Positions 20,971 through 29,986 of a stretch of DNA of 39,800 nt are shown piece by piece. A program made the translations under genes and the position numbers. Below the pieces are notes generated by a model. The model saw only the letters and a program-made list of their open reading frames with translations, made no database searches and was not told the origin of the DNA. Every line of letters begins with the position of its first letter. Positions within the stretch are counted from its first letter, which is position 1. The stretch spans positions 1-39,800 of the forward strand of contig JAUZOY010000004.1 of NCBI GenBank assembly GCA_030706235.1, written 5' to 3'. Source of the DNA: Bacteroidota bacterium (lineage in GTDB: Bacteria; Bacteroidota; Bacteroidia; Bacteroidales; GWE2-29-8).

Positions 20971-22083
20971 TTATTCGTGGAAAATTCTGATTTTATGTCC
21001 TCCATCCTTAAGGTATTTTTGACGTTTGAAATAATTCAAATCTGCTTCCATCATTTCTTTTACTAAACCATGCAGATTATATTTTGGAGTCCATCCAAGT
21101 TTACTTTTTGCTTTTGATGCATCTCCAATCAGCAAGTCAACTTCTGTAGGACGAAAATAATTTTTGTCAATGAGAACAACTTCTTTACCTATTTCAAGCT
21201 GATATTCAGAATTATTACATTTCCTGACTATTCCTTTTTCATCTATTCCACTGCCAATAAATTCAAGTTCGATTCCTACTTCTGCAAATGACATTTTAAT
21301 AAAATCTCTAACTGATGTAGTAATTCCTGTTGCTATAACGAAATCATCAGGTTTGTCTTGTTGAAGAACAAGCCACATTGCTTCAACATAATCTTTTGCA
21401 TGACCCCAGTCTCTTTTAGCATCAATATTTCCCATGTACAATTCGTTTTGTAAGCCTAAAACAATCCTGGATATTCCTCTGGTGATTTTTCTGGTAACAA
21501 AAGTTTCTCCTCTTTGTGCTGATTCATGATTAAATAAAATGCCATTGGCAGCAAACATATTGTAAGCTTCTCTGTAGTTTACTACTATCCAGTAACTGTA
21601 AAGTTTTGCAACAGCATATGGAGATCTTGGATAAAACGGAGTCTTTTCGTTTTGGGGTACTTCCTGAACAAGACCATAAAGTTCTGATGTAGATGCCTGA
21701 TATATCTTTGTCTTTTCTGTAAGATTTAACAACCGTACTGCTTCAAGTATTCTCAAAGTTCCAAGTCCATCTGCATTAGCAGTATACTCAGGAACTTCGA
21801 AACTGACTTTAACATGTGACATAGCCCCAAGATTATAGATCTCATCTGGTTGTACTTCCTGAATGATTCTTATCAGGTTGGATGAGTCAGTAAGGTCACC
21901 ATAATGCATTCTGAATTTTACATCTTTTTCATGTGAATCTTTATATAGATGATCTACTCTGTCTGTATTGATTAGTGAACTTCGACGTTTAATCCCATGA
22001 ACTATATATCCTTTTTTTAATAGAAATTCTGCAAGATATGAACCGTCCTGACCAGTAATTCCCGTTATTAGAGCTACTTTCAT
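20971..22083 (-). CDS. gmd: GDP-mannose 4,6-dehydratase
   Basis: Converts GDP-D-mannose to GDP-4-keto-6-deoxy-D-mannose, the precursor of GDP-fucose, GDP-rhamnose and GDP-perosamine. The 370-residue SDR protein has the NADP-binding [15 protein letters not shown] (8-22). The catalytic T132 and E134 lie in STSELYG, and Y156/K160 lie in YAVAK. RRSS (33-36) and the [15 protein letters not shown] segment are typical of Gmd. It is the last gene of the polysaccharide locus, but a promoter element of its own lies 22 nt upstream. The enzymes that would use its product (fcl, rmd, per) are not in the window. Confidence 0.96.
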
Positions 22084-22105
22084 TTTTTAAGAATATAATT
22101 TTTTA

Positions 22106-22113
22106 CAAAAATA
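22106..22113 (-). promoter_or_regulatory. -7 promoter element of gmd
   Basis: TATTTTTG on the minus strand matches TAnnTTTG, 22 nt before the gmd ATG. The 135-nt gap to the upstream gene also supports a separate start for gmd. Confidence 0.45.
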
Positions 22114-22218
22114 ATATAAAAATTTTAAAAGATTATAAAATTTGAAAACTTATGTAAGTGTATAATTAACTTGTCGGATCAAATCAGACGATATATTACT
22201 TGTGTATTTATCGGGAAA

Positions 22219-23808
22219 TTAGATGGAAGAAACTGATTCCTGAAAATTTATTAAATATTTTGTGAAACTCGGATAATTTTCAATATAATTGATATTATCA
22301 AAATTACAGTGTGACCAATAGTCCAGATCCTGTAAAACCAGAACTTTTTTTCCTAGTTCTGTAGCTTCCTGTATGATGGTTGAATAATAAGAAATTACAA
22401 GACTTGAATTTAAAATAGATTCTCTGCTACTTGAAAAAGTATCATAAAAATATGTTTCTTTTTCAGAATCAATGAAATCACTTAGTTCGTGAGGTAGAAA
22501 AAAAGTTCCGGGATGTTTTCTGATTCTGAAAATGAGCGAATTATCGCTTTTTTTGTGATAATATTTAAGATACTCCAAAATTTTGATGTTATCTTCATGT
22601 ACATCAGATAAACATACCAAAACCTGGGATTTTAAAATATTTTTCGGCTTGATTTTTTCGTTTTTAAATAATTCTATCTTATATATGTTTTTTACTCCCC
22701 ATTCTTTGAAAATTTTATAAGAATTTTCATCATATACAAGAAGATTATCAACCGGAAGATATCCTGTTTTCTGAAGTGGGTATCCATGTTGAAGTATTCT
22801 ATAATTCAGAGATAGCTCACGGCTTAAGTTTATAAATAGTGATGTTCTTGAATGTACTGCTGAATTACTTAATATTAGTTTAGCATTTTTAAAATTTTTT
22901 TTAAAGAATTTTATGTAACAATCTTGTTCGGCAGCAGCCATTGATAAACTACGAAGTAATCTTTTGCGTGGTATATCTTTGTTTATATCGAAACCATAAT
23001 ATTGCCCTAAATCAATTTTTTTAAAGATTATTAAATTAGTGAAATAATTTTTATAAAAATTTCTAAAAAGTGAGAAAGGATTTAGTAATTGTGTAAAATA
23101 TATACATTTTGAGGAATTTACGAGTTTTTTTATTCTTTTGTCAGCAACAAGGTATAAATAATCTTCATTTTTATTGGAAATATATAAATTTAACCTTTTT
23201 ATCATTGACTGATTATATGTGTCATATACAACAAAATTTTCGTATTGTTTATAATGCTTAATATTTACGGGGATGGAAAATAGATTTTTAATATGTATGA
23301 TCATCCATTCTAACCAAAAGAATCTCAATGTATAATGTATTCTTGAAAATAAAGTTTTTTTTTCAATTTTCTCCGGATCAGCGAAGAAAACATTAATATT
23401 TCCTGAATATTTTAGTTTTTTATAAAGTGTTTTATCATCGACAATAGCTATGAAATCATTTTGTTTTTCATATTTTTTAAGTATGTCTGTAATAATGTAA
23501 ATAGCATAAAATAGTAATTGAAAATGTTCCTGAAGCTTAAGCATAATGGAAACTCCAGGTGAAAGATGTTTCTCTTTTGTTTTAAAATTATGATTAATAG
23601 TGTTTACGGTCTTTTGTATAAAACTATAGATAGAATCTTCTACTTTACTTTTATCTGTTTTATAATATTTAATTTTATTAGGGTCAATTTTATAATTTTT
23701 TAGTAGATTGTTTTGGGTAATAAGGTGATATTCAGTAGAATTGTCAATAAGCCTCTGAAGTTTGTCATTATATTTAATCCTTTTTCTTGTTATAAAGATT
23801 AAATTCAT
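22219..23808 (-). CDS. GT-B-like surface carbohydrate protein, exact activity unknown
   Basis: A 529-residue cytoplasmic protein rich in Lys, Asn, Ile and Tyr. I do not recognise the N-terminal half. The C-terminal half resembles the GT-B fold of capsule synthesis and polyglycerol-phosphate-type transferases. It has ILQHGYP (338-344, with LPVDNLLVYDE shortly after), FRIRKHPG (427-434), and SYYSTIIQEATELGKKVLVL (473-492), the usual donor-site pattern of a Ser/Thr, a Glu and a GK turn. No signal peptide or clear membrane helix is seen. It lies between two GT4-type genes and gmd, so transfer of a sugar or alditol phosphate to a surface polymer is the best inference. It could instead make a repeat-unit side chain. 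Confidence 0.65.
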   Translation of the reverse strand: MNLIFITRKRIKYNDKLQRLIDNSTEYHLITQNNLLKNYKIDPNKIKYYKTDKSKVEDSIYSFIQKTVNTINHNFKTKEKHLSPGVSIMLKLQEHFQLLFYAIYIITDILKKYEKQNDFIAIVDDKTLYKKLKYSGNINVFFADPEKIEKKTLFSRIHYTLRFFWLEWMIIHIKNLFSIPVNIKHYKQYENFVVYDTYNQSMIKRLNLYISNKNEDYLYLVADKRIKKLVNSSKCIYFTQLLNPFSLFRNFYKNYFTNLIIFKKIDLGQYYGFDINKDIPRKRLLRSLSMAAAEQDCYIKFFKKNFKNAKLILSNSAVHSRTSLFINLSRELSLNYRILQHGYPLQKTGYLPVDNLLVYDENSYKIFKEWGVKNIYKIELFKNEKIKPKNILKSQVLVCLSDVHEDNIKILEYLKYYHKKSDNSLIFRIRKHPGTFFLPHELSDFIDSEKETYFYDTFSSSRESILNSSLVISYYSTIIQEATELGKKVLVLQDLDYWSHCNFDNINYIENYPSFTKYLINFQESVSSI

Positions 23809-23881
23809 ATTAGTTTGATTAGTTGTGTGATTTGATAATTTATTTTAAACATTTGCTTGGTTAAAGCCGTAATTTGGTATT

Positions 23882-25036
23882 TTATTGTTTATTATTAACA
23901 ATATTTTTATATACCTCCAGTGTTTGTCTGGCTATTGATTCAGGATGATATCTTTCAAAAGCCAATTCTTTAGCTTTTGAGCCCATCTCTTTAGCAATAT
24001 TTTTATTGTTAATTAAAAAACGTATTTTGTCTCTTAATGTTTTGGTATCATTATTCTTAATAATAAATCCTGTTTCACTGTCTTTGATCATATATGGTAT
24101 ACCTCCTACATTTGAAGCAATTACAGGGACTCCAACTGCATTTGCTTCTCCTATTATCATAGGTGCAGTCTCTGCTTTAGTGGGGAGAACAAGACAGATT
24201 GAATTTGCAATTTGTTCCGGTATTTTACTGTTTTCGATAAATTTGTAATATTTGATTTTAGAATCGAGGTTCTTACTTTTTATATATGGTAATATTACAT
24301 TTTTGTAATATCTCGTCTGATCTGTAGAAATTATTAACAAAAAAACATTTTCTATTGACTCAATTGCTTTAACAATTTCAAATAATCCTTTTCTTTCTAC
24401 GTCATTACCGATAAACATTATCTGATTTGATTCAAAATTAGCGTTTTTATGAAAAAAATCTTCTGCAACAGAGTTGCAGATATAATATTTATTGATTTCA
24501 GGATTAATATTTTTTATTGAATCTTCAACGTATTTTGAAATTAAGATTAAATTTTTAATTTTTTTCAGAACTTTTTTCTCTACTTTAATTCCGTAAAGCA
24601 ATCTTAATTTATTTTTAAATCCAATAGCAAGTTTATAAAAATCTTTTGTAAGTCCATGAAGTGTAATAACCGAAGGATAATCAAGATTTATAACTTCGTT
24701 AGCAGGAAATTCAGTAGATTGTCCATGAATAATATCAGGTTTTATATCGTCAATTAATTTATAAAGTTTTTGTTTCTCCCTTTTAAAGTTTGTTAGAAAT
24801 TTTGATACTGAATCTGATGGTTTCAGGTAATGAATTATTACATCATTAACTGTAATTTCCTGATCAAATGTAATTTCTTTATTAAATGTAATGATATGGA
24901 CTTCATTTTCTAATTTAACCAATCCTTTTGCCAGATTAAAAACCCATGGATATGGATGCTGAGGTGTTTGAGATATTAAAGATAATATATCTCTGTTAAT
25001 ATAAGAAGGATACCATGAAAGTATTACAATTTTCAT
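23882..25036 (-). CDS. Family 4 glycosyltransferase
   Basis: A 384-residue GT-B retaining glycosyltransferase. The N-domain starts MKIVILSWYPS and has PDIIHGQSTEFPANEV (about 109-124) and SVITLHGL. The C-domain begins near IMFIGNDVERKGLFEIVKAI and carries the nucleotide-sugar EX7E motif in ETAPMIIGEANAVGVPVIAS, followed by NVGGIPYMIKDSETGFII. These are textbook GT4 features. The start codon overlaps the stop of the upstream glycosyltransferase by one base, so the two are translationally coupled. Donor and acceptor are unknown. Confidence 0.9.
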   Translation of the reverse strand: MKIVILSWYPSYINRDILSLISQTPQHPYPWVFNLAKGLVKLENEVHIITFNKEITFDQEITVNDVIIHYLKPSDSVSKFLTNFKREKQKLYKLIDDIKPDIIHGQSTEFPANEVINLDYPSVITLHGLTKDFYKLAIGFKNKLRLLYGIKVEKKVLKKIKNLILISKYVEDSIKNINPEINKYYICNSVAEDFFHKNANFESNQIMFIGNDVERKGLFEIVKAIESIENVFLLIISTDQTRYYKNVILPYIKSKNLDSKIKYYKFIENSKIPEQIANSICLVLPTKAETAPMIIGEANAVGVPVIASNVGGIPYMIKDSETGFIIKNNDTKTLRDKIRFLINNKNIAKEMGSKAKELAFERYHPESIARQTLEVYKNIVNNKQ

Positions 25037-26097
25037 TAATTACCTTTTTTTAAAAGTTTTTTTATTATTTTATCTGTTTCATCAACAACGTCTTCCCAAC
25101 TTCTATAATGATTTTTAGAAGTATCCGGCATTTGATTTGCTACAAAATTATCAATAAAATTTATTATTTCATCAGGATTATTGCCGGGTATAAGATTATT
25201 GAAATTATCTTTTTTTATATGTCCTAACGGAGTTGCAACAACATATAACCCGTTTATCAGATAATCGAAATATTTAAGTGAACTCCCATAAAATCCATAT
25301 CTGGACCAACTGTAATCGCCATAGAGAGCAAGACCTATATTTGAATTAATAGTTAAATAACTAACCGAATCTCTCGATAAATCAGAAAATATAAAAACAT
25401 TTTGTATATTTTTATATTTTTCAATTAATGAGATATCATTGCATATTAATATAAAGGCCGTATTTTTATTGGTTTTAGTTATGATATTTTCAATTATATC
25501 AATCCCTTGCCACGAAGTATTTGTCCCAGACCAAATAACGGTTTTTATGAATGAAGACTTGATTTTATTAACAGCTTCAATTATTGAATCAGGAACATTT
25601 AGTTTACTTATATCAATCTTTTCCCCTCCATTTTCAACTATTACAACATTTTTACATTTTAATTCATTTATGCAATAATTTTTCATGTTTTCGCTGATTG
25701 CTATAACTGTATCTGCATAACTAATAAGCGATTTTAATTTTTTATCATTTTTAATTACCTCATTTTTATTTCTACCAAGCATAAGTAACTCATCTGAAGG
25801 ACTATTGAACTCCACTATGGTTTTTTTACGAAGTAATTTTGCTATCAGAGGTATATAATTTGTCTTTCCGAAATAAATAAAGCGAACATATACTAAATCT
25901 GAGATAAGTATTTTGTAAATCAGAGAGATGATGTTTTTTGATGCTTTAAATGTAAAATCATCTTTTTGATTTTGAAATGTAATGATCTCATATCCTTTAT
26001 TATGAAGACCTTTAGCTAAATAATACCCATGTACACTTGCTCCACCTGTAACCGGGAAAAACTTAGGATAAAAGAAAGCTATTTTAAAATTTTTCAT
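25036..26097 (-). CDS. GT4-like glycosyltransferase
   Basis: A 353-residue GT-B protein. The N-terminus has FFYPKFFPVTGGASVHGYYL, the donor/acceptor glycine loop of GT4 enzymes, and DTVIAISENMKNYC, which is the usual hinge before the C-domain. The C-domain has VIWSGTNTSWQGID and then SLKYFDYLINGLYVVATPLG, where an EX7E pair is not clear, so it is a divergent member. The ATG at 26097 is preferred over a TTG three codons upstream because the conserved N-terminal strand begins there. It overlaps the next GT4 gene by one base (TAATG). Confidence 0.8.
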   Translation of the reverse strand: MKNFKIAFFYPKFFPVTGGASVHGYYLAKGLHNKGYEIITFQNQKDDFTFKASKNIISLIYKILISDLVYVRFIYFGKTNYIPLIAKLLRKKTIVEFNSPSDELLMLGRNKNEVIKNDKKLKSLISYADTVIAISENMKNYCINELKCKNVVIVENGGEKIDISKLNVPDSIIEAVNKIKSSFIKTVIWSGTNTSWQGIDIIENIITKTNKNTAFILICNDISLIEKYKNIQNVFIFSDLSRDSVSYLTINSNIGLALYGDYSWSRYGFYGSSLKYFDYLINGLYVVATPLGHIKKDNFNNLIPGNNPDEIINFIDNFVANQMPDTSKNHYRSWEDVVDETDKIIKKLLKKGN

Positions 26098-26184
26098 TGT
26101 CCGCAAAAATACTATCTATTTCTGTAAACATACACCTTTTTTTATTATTTGTTTATAGTATAAACATAACCTACACAGGTTTCT

Positions 26185-27509
26185 TTAAATTAGAAATTTA
26201 TGTTTATAAATATTGTTGTTAACAGTTGCTATAATAAAATAGGTGCCTTTTTTAAACCTGGAAATGTCAAACTCCTTAATGTTATCATATTGGTTAATGT
26301 ATAAGTCCTTTTGGTATATTAGTTTATTATCAATATCATAAATCATAAAATTAATTTTATCCTCTTTATCAGTATAAACCTGGACATACAATTTGTCTTT
26401 ACCCGGATTTGGATATATTTTAAAAATCTGATCATCTGATTTATTAATTAATTCAGGTTTGATATGTATTTTACCGGTATTGGGAATAGAATTAAATTCA
26501 AGATATTTAGTTCCGTTATTGTTCTCTATTACAAAAGGTAGATTTTTATAGTTTTGGGTTAATGATAGTATGCTTGTCCAGTTAATAGGCATTTTTATTC
26601 TCAATGTAAGAGGAAAATTATAAATACTGTCCGGAAGTTCTTCTGTTAATTCAAAACTATACTCATCATTTGTTATTTTAATAGATTTTATTTCGGCGGA
26701 TTTTCGTTCTTTAATATATCTAATAGCATTCCCAAATGTAGTTACCCAAATTTTGGATTCGTTAGCTTTAATTTAATCAAGATGTTGTTTTAAAAAAGAA
26801 GATTTTATAGGAGAGTAACCATTTGAATCAAGACCATGAATTAGTTCAACAAGCCATCGATTTTGTTTAATGTCAGTGTCTATCAATGAGTCAGCGTACT
26901 CTATTTTAGTAGTTGTATCAAAACTAAAACAATATATTTTATAAAAATTTATATTGTTAACATCTGAGTACCATCGTTCAGTTGATCTTGATCCTATATA
27001 ATAGTTAGAAACTAAATTTATTACATCAGTATTATATTTACCCCGGGGTAACTTAATGACACACATTTTGGGCTTTTAACCTTAGAATTTATTACATCTC
27101 TGGAAACGGACAATTCATAATTACATTCTTCAGGTGAAATATCAGTAAGATTATAATGATTTACTGTATGGCTTCCAATTTCATGTCCTTGGTTTGCATT
27201 ATTAATAACATCTGTCCAGTTAGCAAAAGAATTATGACCGATCAGATTAGTAATTATAAAAAAAGTTGCTTTAAAATTATTGGAGTTTAGCATATCTGTC
27301 GCCTGTCGAAACGGACTGCTATAACCATCATCAAATGTAATTGACAATGCACTTTGTTTATTATTATACCATTGAGTAATATTATAGTCAAGTTGAGAAT
27401 GACTTTTTAAAAAACTTAACAAAAACAACAAAAATAGCATTGCTGTTTTTATTTTAATGTTAAAACTTTCTTTAGAGAAGAATTCTAAATATTTAATCCT
27501 CTGTACCAT
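26185..27509 (-). pseudogene. Broken T9SS-targeted polysaccharide deacetylase
   Basis: Three pieces add up to one NodB-type (CE4) deacetylase with a type A T9SS tail. Piece 1 (27509 down to about 27045) has a signal-like segment AMLFLLFLLSFLKSHSQ, the metal and catalytic motif TFDDG (58-62) and SHTVNH (113-118). At CCCCGGGG (27041-27048) one base appears to be missing: restoring it turns SLSYPG into SLSYPRGKYNTDV, the expected YPxG motif. Piece 2 runs from there to an in-frame TAA at 26773-26775. The same frame then stays open, KANESKIWVTTFGNAIRYIK follows, and it ends with KIYPNPGKDKLYVQV ... GTYFIIA, the sorting domain, at 26185. The start at 27509 overlaps the upstream GT2 gene by 25 nt; ATG 27440 is an alternative. 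Two lesions make a single sequencing error unlikely as the whole explanation. Confidence 0.85.
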
Positions 27510-28309
27510 ACCCGGATTAAGTTTCTTGGAAAATATCTAAATGGGCAAGCAAATATAAGGAAAATAGTTAAATAGTATGGATTCATAGGGTTTCTTTTAG
27601 AAAAAACATTGTTTTTTAACGAAAAAATGGTCCTTGAATATTTGTTTTGAATACCTGTAGGTTCATTTGTAATCCATAGTTTGAGATTTTCATCTGTAAT
27701 TAATTTATAACCTTTCCGATATGCTCTGATTGTATATTCATAATCTCCACCATAATGCGGTAGTAGTATGTTATGAAATTCTCCTATTTTAAGCATATCT
27801 GAAAATCTGAGAAAAAGCCCTCTTGTAGAAAAACAATTTGCAGGATTTTCCGGAGTCGCGTCATTTATCTTAAATCTCTTCCAGTCTATGCATTTTCCCT
27901 GATCAAATAAGATACCTGAATTCAAATCGTAGGCTTTTGCCAATAATATTGATTGTGAATTAATGTCCATTAATTTTACAGCAGTTTCAAGAAAATTTTC
28001 CTCAAAATATGTATCATTATTAATTAAAAGTACAATGCTATCAGATCCCTTTGCATTATTTATTAGCCATTTATAGCCCTTTTGAAAACAACCTCCGACC
28101 CATAAATTACCATTGCCTTTAATTAATGTTAAAGATTTTATCATTTTTTTTACAAAAATTTCTGTTCCGTCGGTTGAGCCATCGTCAATCAGTAATAAAT
28201 GATAATTTTTATATGTTTGTTTTAAAAGACAATTTATAAATATCTCAGTAATTTTAATACGATTATGTATAGGTACAATTATATAAACGCAAGTATTTTC
28301 CGGTGGCAT
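27485..28309 (-). CDS. Family 2 glycosyltransferase (RfbF/rhamnosyl-like group)
   Basis: A 274-residue GT-A protein. It has VYIIVPIHNRIKITEIFINC (8-27), LLLIDDGSTDGTE (about 38-50), GNGNLWVGGCFQKGY (about 65-79) and the metal site LLINNDTYFEENFL (about 93-106). The NND in place of DxD and the GNLWVGGC stretch are typical of the GT2 group that includes rhamnosyltransferases. Soluble or peripheral, without clear membrane helices apart from a hydrophobic stretch near residues 245-262. It comes 50 nt after the acyltransferase and overlaps the broken deacetylase gene. Confidence 0.87.
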   Translation of the reverse strand: MPPENTCVYIIVPIHNRIKITEIFINCLLKQTYKNYHLLLIDDGSTDGTEIFVKKMIKSLTLIKGNGNLWVGGCFQKGYKWLINNAKGSDSIVLLINNDTYFEENFLETAVKLMDINSQSILLAKAYDLNSGILFDQGKCIDWKRFKINDATPENPANCFSTRGLFLRFSDMLKIGEFHNILLPHYGGDYEYTIRAYRKGYKLITDENLKLWITNEPTGIQNKYSRTIFSLKNNVFSKRNPMNPYYLTIFLIFACPFRYFPRNLIRVWYRGLNI

Positions 28310-28359
28310 TCTTTCTTGTTTGATTATTTTAATTTAATATTTCAGAAAATGACTGTTGA

Positions 28360-29052
28360 TTATTCATTGAATTTCTTATAAAATTCATCAATACTTCTGA
28401 AATAATGTGCATTTTCCTGTATCCAGTTTTTGTCTTTATTCCACCACTTAAACTCATTTAAAAAAGATATTATTTTTTCATCAAATCTTGATTTAATTAG
28501 TTTTGCCGGAATTCCTCCAACAATAGTATATGGCGAGACATCTTTGGTTACAATAGCTCCTGCTGCTATTATTGCACCATCACCGATTTTTATTCCATCA
28601 AAAATAATTACATTATTTCCTATCCAAACATCATTCCCAATTTCTACAACATATTTCTTTTCTTTATCTATATATTTATGTTCTTCAAAAATTGTTTCAT
28701 TTGTATACGTAAAACCTGCCTGTCTGTTTGTAGAAAAAAAAGCTGGATGAATTGAAACAAATTCACTTGCAGGATGCATCCCTATACATGTCCTGACATA
28801 ATCTCCAATAGCACAATAACGACCTATTTTGGTTTTTCTGATTATAGAATTATTTGATATATAAGAACCATAACCTAAGTAACTGTCTAAAATTTCAGTA
28901 TTGTTATTAATAGAATTTCCGCCTTCGAAGAAAGAACTATTATTAATTTTCGATTCCTTGCCTGCAAGTATACCATATTTTTTAATTATCTTTTTTAAGC
29001 GATATTTATCCCTAAAGGATTCCGGTACCAATGAGCGAAAAATTTTTAACAT
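28360..29052 (-). CDS. Hexapeptide-repeat acyltransferase (CatB/XAT-like)
   Basis: A 230-residue left-handed beta-helix protein. Hexapeptide repeats are visible at SYLGYGSYISNNSIIRKTKI and IGNDVWIGNNVIIFDGIKIG, then GDGAIIAAGAIVTKDVSPYT and IVGGIPAKLIKSRF. The GMHPASEFVSIHP loop supplies a His expected to act as the catalytic base in the xenobiotic/O-acetyltransferase group. Within this locus an O-acetyl (or other acyl) transfer to a polysaccharide sugar is more likely than antibiotic resistance. It starts 4 nt after the methyltransferase stop, so it is coupled to that gene. Confidence 0.87.
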   Translation of the reverse strand: MLKIFRSLVPESFRDKYRLKKIIKKYGILAGKESKINNSSFFEGGNSINNNTEILDSYLGYGSYISNNSIIRKTKIGRYCAIGDYVRTCIGMHPASEFVSIHPAFFSTNRQAGFTYTNETIFEEHKYIDKEKKYVVEIGNDVWIGNNVIIFDGIKIGDGAIIAAGAIVTKDVSPYTIVGGIPAKLIKSRFDEKIISFLNEFKWWNKDKNWIQENAHYFRSIDEFYKKFNE

Positions 29053-29056
29053 AAAA

Positions 29057-29986
29057 TTATTGTTTTTTTCCTTCCCCTTTTGTTGCTATAAATGAAAATG
29101 AACCGGTAGAATATAATATCCTGTATTTTTCACTTGACCGGTATGAATTTGAAAAGTATGATCCTAACTTCCACCATATTCTATGAAGTAAATAAAGTGG
29201 AAGTACCAATAAATGAGCAAGTGATCGTGATAACCTTGGAAAAAGGCCCATTATAGCCTGTGCTTTCAGAACTGACCATGTTGCACTTGGTGCAACTTTC
29301 TCTATTTCGAATCCACTGGAAGATAGAGAATTGAAAACCCCTAAATGAGAATGGTGGTAAAAACTATTCCCATGAAAAGGTTCCATAAATGCAACAGTTC
29401 CAATTAATTTGCCTTCAGGTTTCAGTACCCTGTAAACTTCTTTCATCATTATAAATGGATTTTGAATATGTTCTAATACCGCAATTGAAAGTATAAAATC
29501 AAAACTGTTATCTTTGAAAGGAAGTGCATGTCCATCTCCCAATATATATGCATCGGATGAATTATCATAATCTAATCCTACATATTCAAAACCGGCGTGT
29601 TCACATACTCCCTTGTGTACAGTAGTCCCACATCCAAGATCCAGCATAATGCATTCCTGCCCTTTTGCTTTTGGAAAATAACTTAATAGTTCATTATTCA
29701 GATGACTTGGCACTTTGAAGTTCGTATAATCTACCTCAGGAAAAGGATTTTTATTCAAAACTTTGAAATCGAAACCTTTTTCCGGTAGAAGATTTGTCCC
29801 AACCTCAAATTGCAGTTGAACAGTTTTCCCCCTTCTAAGTCGAAAATCAATCTGACCTTTATTTGATGTAGTATATTTATCCTGACATACTGTGCATATA
29901 GCCTGATTGTCTGCTATTTTAAGTGGATTTCCGCAATAAGGGCATGCCAGAATATCAATTATTTTTTTTGAAAGTTTAATCTCCAT
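29057..29986 (-). CDS. SAM-dependent methyltransferase with N-terminal zinc ribbon
   Basis: A 309-residue protein. The first 40 residues form a Trm112-like zinc ribbon (C15, C18, C31, C34, as CPYC and CTVC). A class I methyltransferase core follows: motif I MLDLGCGTT, the acidic motif VGLDYDNSS, then LPFKDNSFDFILSIAVLEHI and EVYRVLKPEGKLIG. A C-terminal hydrophobic stretch near 255-275 may touch the membrane. It is the first gene of the polysaccharide locus on this strand. The target, perhaps a sugar or lipid carrier intermediate, is unknown. Confidence 0.87.
   Translation of the reverse strand: MEIKLSKKIIDILACPYCGNPLKIADNQAICTVCQDKYTTSNKGQIDFRLRRGKTVQLQFEVGTNLLPEKGFDFKVLNKNPFPEVDYTNFKVPSHLNNELLSYFPKAKGQECIMLDLGCGTTVHKGVCEHAGFEYVGLDYDNSSDAYILGDGHALPFKDNSFDFILSIAVLEHIQNPFIMMKEVYRVLKPEGKLIGTVAFMEPFHGNSFYHHSHLGVFNSLSSSGFEIEKVAPSATWSVLKAQAIMGLFPRLSRSLAHLLVLPLYLLHRIWWKLGSYFSNSYRSSEKYRILYSTGSFSFIATKGEGKKQ

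Follow-up and report, generated by a model that had tools for sequence, protein, structure and literature searches.

Here, we report that P0001, a 529-residue protein encoded in the genome of a Bacteroidota bacterium, is probably (a probability of about 0.75) a metal-independent GT-B transferase of surface glycan synthesis and a remote outlier of the family described by the curated models BFO_1060 (NF046086) and TIGR04396. Its assignment to the GT-B transferases of surface glycan synthesis has good support; the relation of its C-terminal half to the family, the GT-B fold prediction, the conserved motifs and the nonulosonate context of the family were all obtained by computation. We regard P0001 as a distant outlier of a Bacteroidota family that is already recognised, and not as a new protein type.

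The window, i.e., the whole stretch of 39,800 nucleotides that was analysed, fills a complete contig in a 3.2-Mb assembly of 389 contigs. Type IX secretion (T9SS) features and the named source of the relatives point to Bacteroidota. The P0001 gene (Table 1) reads from an ATG start with no in-frame stop, and the opposite strand across the same positions is rich in stops. The first-pass annotation had delimited the open reading frame exactly, giving no strand, and the three C-terminal motifs that it quoted are present as written: QHGYP (residues 340-344), RKHPG (430-434) and SYYSTIIQEA (473-482). Its placing of the gene among surface-carbohydrate genes also holds, as P0001 lies in a co-directional glycan cluster (20971-29986) with a methyltransferase, a hexapeptide acyltransferase, a GT2 enzyme, a broken deacetylase, two GT4-like genes and gmd. 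Neither a flippase nor a polymerase was recognised in this cluster, no NeuB, CMP-sugar synthetase or Wzx was found in the window, and no second gene of P0001's family was found elsewhere in the source genome.

Table 1 Coordinates of P0001, its regions and its neighbouring genes in the window
Feature	Position	Strand	Domain match
P0001, divergent GT-B glycosyltransferase, 529 aa	22219..23808	-	
P0001 residues 1-185, accessory N-terminal region (suggested)	23254..23808	-	
P0001 residues 187-345, predicted N-terminal Rossmann-like domain of GT-B fold, ending with QHG (Q340 H341 G342)	22774..23250	-	
P0001 residues 352-529, predicted C-terminal (nucleotide-binding) Rossmann domain; R430-K-H432-P433, S476-T477-x3-E481	22222..22755	-	
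gmd, GDP-mannose 4,6-dehydratase; adjoins P0001 downstream	20971..22083	-	PF16363, E 9e-150
GT4-type glycosyltransferase	23882..25036	-	PF00534, E 2e-27
GT4-like glycosyltransferase	25036..26106	-	PF13439, E 2e-6
GT2 glycosyltransferase	27485..28309	-	PF00535, E 4e-16
Hexapeptide-repeat acyltransferase	28360..29052	-	PF00132, E 2e-10
SAM-dependent methyltransferase, upstream end of the cluster	29057..29986	-	PF08241, E 1e-17

Searches with P0001 itself gave little. Nothing meaningful was found in Pfam (PF07388, the GT38 model, included), NCBIfam or the PDB, no credible homologue among 99 relatives and 396 phylum genomes (about 500 genomes), no match in plasmids, phages and viral contigs, and no homologue when 85,000 genomes were scanned by pattern. 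PHROGs returned a weak match (phrog_32346, E 0.004), and single-sequence matches (the relative L085) are marginal at most. The top matches of the phylum search (inositol-phosphatase-like and fucosidase-like proteins, ABC transporters and a dehydrogenase) were judged to be chance after reading by eye; two proteins (L018 and L021) were the sole ones retained, as motif-consistent. The curated NCBIfam models NF046086 and TIGR04396 do not match P0001 up to E 10, so that the protein is not filed under either of them.

The relation to the family was reached through intermediates. Briefly, the entry point was a PF04464 search of relatives (E about 1e-8 to 1e-11), which gave three proteins of 611-664 amino acids (L036, L039 and L042) with a P0001-like order of motifs and with curated matches to PF04464, NF046086 (BFO_1060 family glycosyltransferase) and TIGR04396. 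Iterated profile searches extended the set to more than 50 proteins of about 345-664 amino acids. In a 53-row alignment that includes P0001, NF046086 matches 36 rows and TIGR04396 35, P0001 being matched by neither. When a 40-member Bacteroidota profile built without P0001 was compared with it by hhalign, residues 294-495 aligned (E 2.2e-5, score 44) with the QHG, HP and ST...E motifs in register; please note that some profile members were gathered with query alignments containing P0001, which makes this value mildly circular. The 25 null comparisons, i.e., the reversed sequence, 15 shuffled ones and nine other window proteins, scored 25 or less, and with HMMER a domain match was obtained at residues 375-523 (i-E 1.8e-7 for one sequence). 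Comparisons with tiny family sets were mostly insignificant, the 40-member profile alone being decisive. The C-terminal half of P0001 is thus related, in the broad sense, to the BFO_1060/TIGR04396-type GT-B family, at an identity of about 11-20% to any member. In a tree of the family P0001 sits on a very long branch, where support on long branches is weak (0.74-0.82), and we do not rely on its placement.

The structural prediction points in the same direction. AlphaFold2 gave a pLDDT of 35 and a pTM of 0.21 from the single sequence and a pLDDT of 77 and a pTM of 0.71 with the 53-row family alignment, which may itself have forced part of the fold on P0001. In this model the GT-B part (from about residue 187) is mostly confident and residues 1-180 are moderate. 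In the PDB its fold is best matched by 5wcn, a polysialyltransferase with CDP (E 9e-8), and the matches that come next are mainly UDP-GlcNAc 2-epimerases; TM-scores to PDB entries are modest (0.36 on the query and 0.47 on the target for 5wcn). The family profile, compared with the PDB by sequence, matches KpsC (CMP-Kdo) and Bcs3 (E 1e-7) and also UDP-GlcNAc 2-epimerases. We consider a GT-B fold to be the predicted fold of P0001, and the reading as a GT-B-like transferase made in the first-pass annotation is supported. The comparisons that it suggested, with CDP-glycerol transferases, KpsC and sialyltransferases, return all three as remote relatives by profile or fold.

The N-terminal half had been described as 270 residues that match nothing. 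At the level of direct comparison this is true, because the direct searches were empty; however, these residues do not form one unknown half. The GT-B fold begins near residue 187, so that the extra part amounts to only about 185 residues, and the "unknown" half would consist of an accessory piece and the first half of a standard two-domain fold, making P0001 a distant member of a kind already recognised. Within the family alignment, residues 1-185 form a weak but co-linear match to the corresponding half of a 611-aa Bacteroidota subfamily, and residues 98-185 alone score 28.7 against this subfamily (maximum of 60 shuffles, 24.8), the single-pair E being only 0.003. This is suggestive of an N-terminal region common to P0001 and the subfamily. 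The model of residues 1-185 has a short alpha/beta start and long helices at 43-74, 85-114 and 153-178, with a block-mean confidence of about 50-77. The helix before the first GT-B strand is hydrophobic in the 611-aa subfamily (Kyte-Doolittle up to 2.2), and the P0001 helix at the same position is amphipathic and aromatic (up to 0.9) in a basic protein (pI 9.4).

P0001 keeps nine family-conserved residues, found in 44 to 51 of 52 proteins: Q340 (46), H341 (46), G342 (50), D354 (44), H432 (47), P433 (51), S476 (44), T477 (44) and E481 (47). It lacks the DEN before QHG, the SQ at 400-401, the WG at 359-360, the HPxE and the usual C-terminal tail that are common in the family; the frames past its stop were checked for a frameshifted remainder of the C-terminus, and nothing family-like was found before gmd. 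In GT38 enzymes H291 of the HP motif has been connected with stabilisation of the leaving CMP group, and the base is E153 of the D/E-D/E-G motif (PMC5517516). Since QHG takes the position of D/E-D/E-G, H341 is proposed, by analogy, as the catalytic base of P0001.

From these data we infer the donor, the acceptor, the catalytic roles and a membrane association of P0001 as follows. The protein would be a metal-independent GT-B glycosyltransferase whose probable task, at the inner membrane face, is to extend a lipid-linked surface glycan by one residue. The donor nucleotide would sit in the C-terminal domain, gripped by H432-P433, S476-T477 and E481, and H341 of QHG would act as the catalytic base from the opposite side of the cleft, where the GT38 sialyltransferases use D/E-D/E-G. 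The basic and amphipathic N-terminal helices may aid membrane binding.

Among known proteins, P0001 resembles the BFO_1060 family glycosyltransferases and the TIGR04396 surface carbohydrate biosynthesis proteins in its C-terminal GT-B domain with QHG, HP and ST...E motifs, but it is longer by some 185 residues at the N-terminus and shorter at the C-terminus. The 611-aa subfamily (e.g., L042, L036, L039 and L118) resembles it in whole-length layout, apparently including the N-terminal accessory region; unlike these proteins, P0001 has no DENSP, SQ, WG, HPxE or C-terminal tail, and its gene does not adjoin NeuB or a flippase. The Mannheimia haemolytica GT38 polysialyltransferase 5wcn, its best fold match, has a GT-B fold, a nucleotide HP motif and likewise no C-terminal extension, whereas P0001 carries QHG where this enzyme has D/E-D/E-G, is only 14% identical to it when the folds are aligned and gives no sequence-level match. 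PF04464 Glyphos_transf (TagB/TagF), KpsC and the UDP-GlcNAc 2-epimerases belong to a common GT-B superfamily with P0001, although its own sequence gives no membership in any of them. By their published description, the Tannerella forsythia nonulosonate transferases GtfS/TFUB4_00887 are similar in being GT-B proteins with an HP motif from Bacteroidota surface glycan clusters (PMC6388019), but they are shorter (about 445 aa).

Genes of the family usually lie near those for nonulosonates, i.e., sialic-acid-like sugars. Genes of the 611-aa subfamily often adjoin a flippase, NeuB, a 170-aa HAD phosphatase and a cytidylyltransferase; on named Bacteroidota contigs NeuB was present in the fetched flank of 28/49 loci, the HAD phosphatase in 21/49 and a CMP synthetase in 17/49, several contigs ending short of where the neighbour would appear. 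NeuB was also near 12/20 loci of the remaining family members and near 0/14 loci of the controls, i.e., other PF04464/PF07388 transferases of the same order (Fisher p 6e-5 for 28/49 and 2e-4 for 12/20), in a comparison where control windows varied somewhat in size and common descent keeps the loci from being independent. The Kdn pathway set of Bacteroides thetaiotaomicron (PMC6200933) consists of NeuB, HAD phosphatase and CMP synthetase. The subfamily gene lies beside a flippase and this set at L136:3270-5504, L138, L142 and many of L151-L189, and the flippase, the NeuB set and the 611-aa transferase probably make up a Kdn-type module for export and transfer. When GtfS, a CMP-nonulosonate transferase with HP and D/E-D/E-G motifs, is knocked out in Tannerella forsythia, the terminal nonulosonate is lost (PMC6120980, PMC6388019), and the nonulosonate transferases of this species are said to contain a TagB domain (PMC7439481). 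We predict that the 611-aa subfamily consists of nonulosonate transferases.

Current family models overlook transferases that build Bacteroidota surface glycans. An apparent orphan is hereby tied, via intermediates, to a broad family that is NeuB-adjacent far more often than control transferases, which offers a donor hypothesis for many proteins labelled only "glycosyltransferase" or "surface carbohydrate biosynthesis protein". There is little experimental evidence on nonulosonate transferases outside the classic sialyltransferase families (PMC6388019). The earlier suggestion of a less studied family is supported. We consider the link of this broad family, above all of the uncharacterised 611-aa subfamily, to nonulosonate synthesis to be the more interesting product; P0001 is one remote example of the family.

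The donor of P0001 itself probably belongs to the cytidine-activated class. CMP-nonulosonate is our leading guess, held at somewhat less than even odds. It is favoured by the family context, by the cytidine-type relatives and by NeuB and an SpsF-like CMP-sugar synthetase encoded on other contigs of the source genome (C45 and C14); it is disfavoured by the gene that adjoins P0001, gmd and not NeuB, by the missing residues typical of NeuB-linked members, and by contig C45 having a PF07388-like transferase of its own. The nonulosonate cluster on this contig (L148) encodes a DegT-like aminotransferase, a NeuB/SpsE-like synthase, a Wzx-like flippase, the 348-aa transferase, which is weakly similar to PF07388, and a polymerase-like multi-pass membrane protein. 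Another cytidine donor seems rather doubtful.

With the same GT-B fold, P0001 may instead use a GDP-6-deoxyhexose (e.g., GDP-rhamnose, -fucose or -perosamine) made starting with the neighbouring gmd, an unlikely alternative. Not only does gmd lie directly downstream in a window with neither NeuB nor CMP-sugar synthetase, it is also near the relatives L084, L127, L065 and L060, and both P0001 and L085 lack several residues typical of the NeuB-adjacent members. Yet gmd can supply the two adjoining GT4-type enzymes, L127, L065 and L060 have a nearby NeuB besides gmd, and the solved relatives from the profile search include no GDP-sugar transferase. We also regard it as doubtful that P0001 and the long-branch relatives L085, L084, L114, L127, L128 and L130 make up an undescribed family (future CAZy) with a non-nonulosonate donor and an N-terminal accessory, possibly membrane-binding, domain.

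The phosphate-polymer function put forward in the first-pass annotation, which would make P0001 a CDP-glycerol or CDP-ribitol phosphotransferase of the TagB/TagF type, finds an echo in the PF04464 matches of the relatives and in the match of the family profile to the capsule polymerase Bcs3, and the HG...HP...ST arrangement is TagF-like too. However, PF04464 gives no match to P0001 at any E-value up to 10, TagD (TIGR01518), the CDP-glycerol synthetase, was not found in the about 88% complete genome, the window holds no teichoic-type genes, and the relatives adjoin nonulosonate genes, all of which makes this function very improbable. Hardly any likelihood is left for a KpsC/KrkA-like retaining Kdo-type transferase: the family profile does match KpsC, and a GT140-family Kdo transferase is likewise similar in fold to GT38 (PMC12887879), but the KpsC match spans only the GT-B core motif region and Kdo-polymer genes are absent from the window.

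A glycosyltransferase in use remains our preferred reading when set against a decaying or inactive copy drifting from the family, which we think improbable. The very long branch, the low G+C, the short C-terminus, the absence of several residues typical of the family and the presence of a broken gene in the vicinity would fit such decay, but 529 stop-free codons in DNA of 25% G+C, the retention of every core motif residue and an otherwise coherent, co-directional cluster argue against it. The G+C of P0001, 25%, lies below the 31% of the window and the roughly 30-37% of most housekeeping genes. The middle of the cluster has a G+C of 25-29%, lower than in the housekeeping genes on either side, which would fit horizontal exchange.

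Two further observations concern neighbouring genes. On the minus strand at 26185-27509, a polysaccharide deacetylase domain (PF01522, 27021-27509) and a C-terminal sorting domain of type IX secretion (PF18962, 26185-26604) appear to be pieces of one secreted enzyme that a frameshift has split; this would be a pseudogene or else an error of assembly. Immediately after the gene of the P0001 relative L085 comes one for an HMGL-like aldolase (L132:9419-10975), in a glycan cluster that has no NeuB, which possibly points to an unusual donor pathway.
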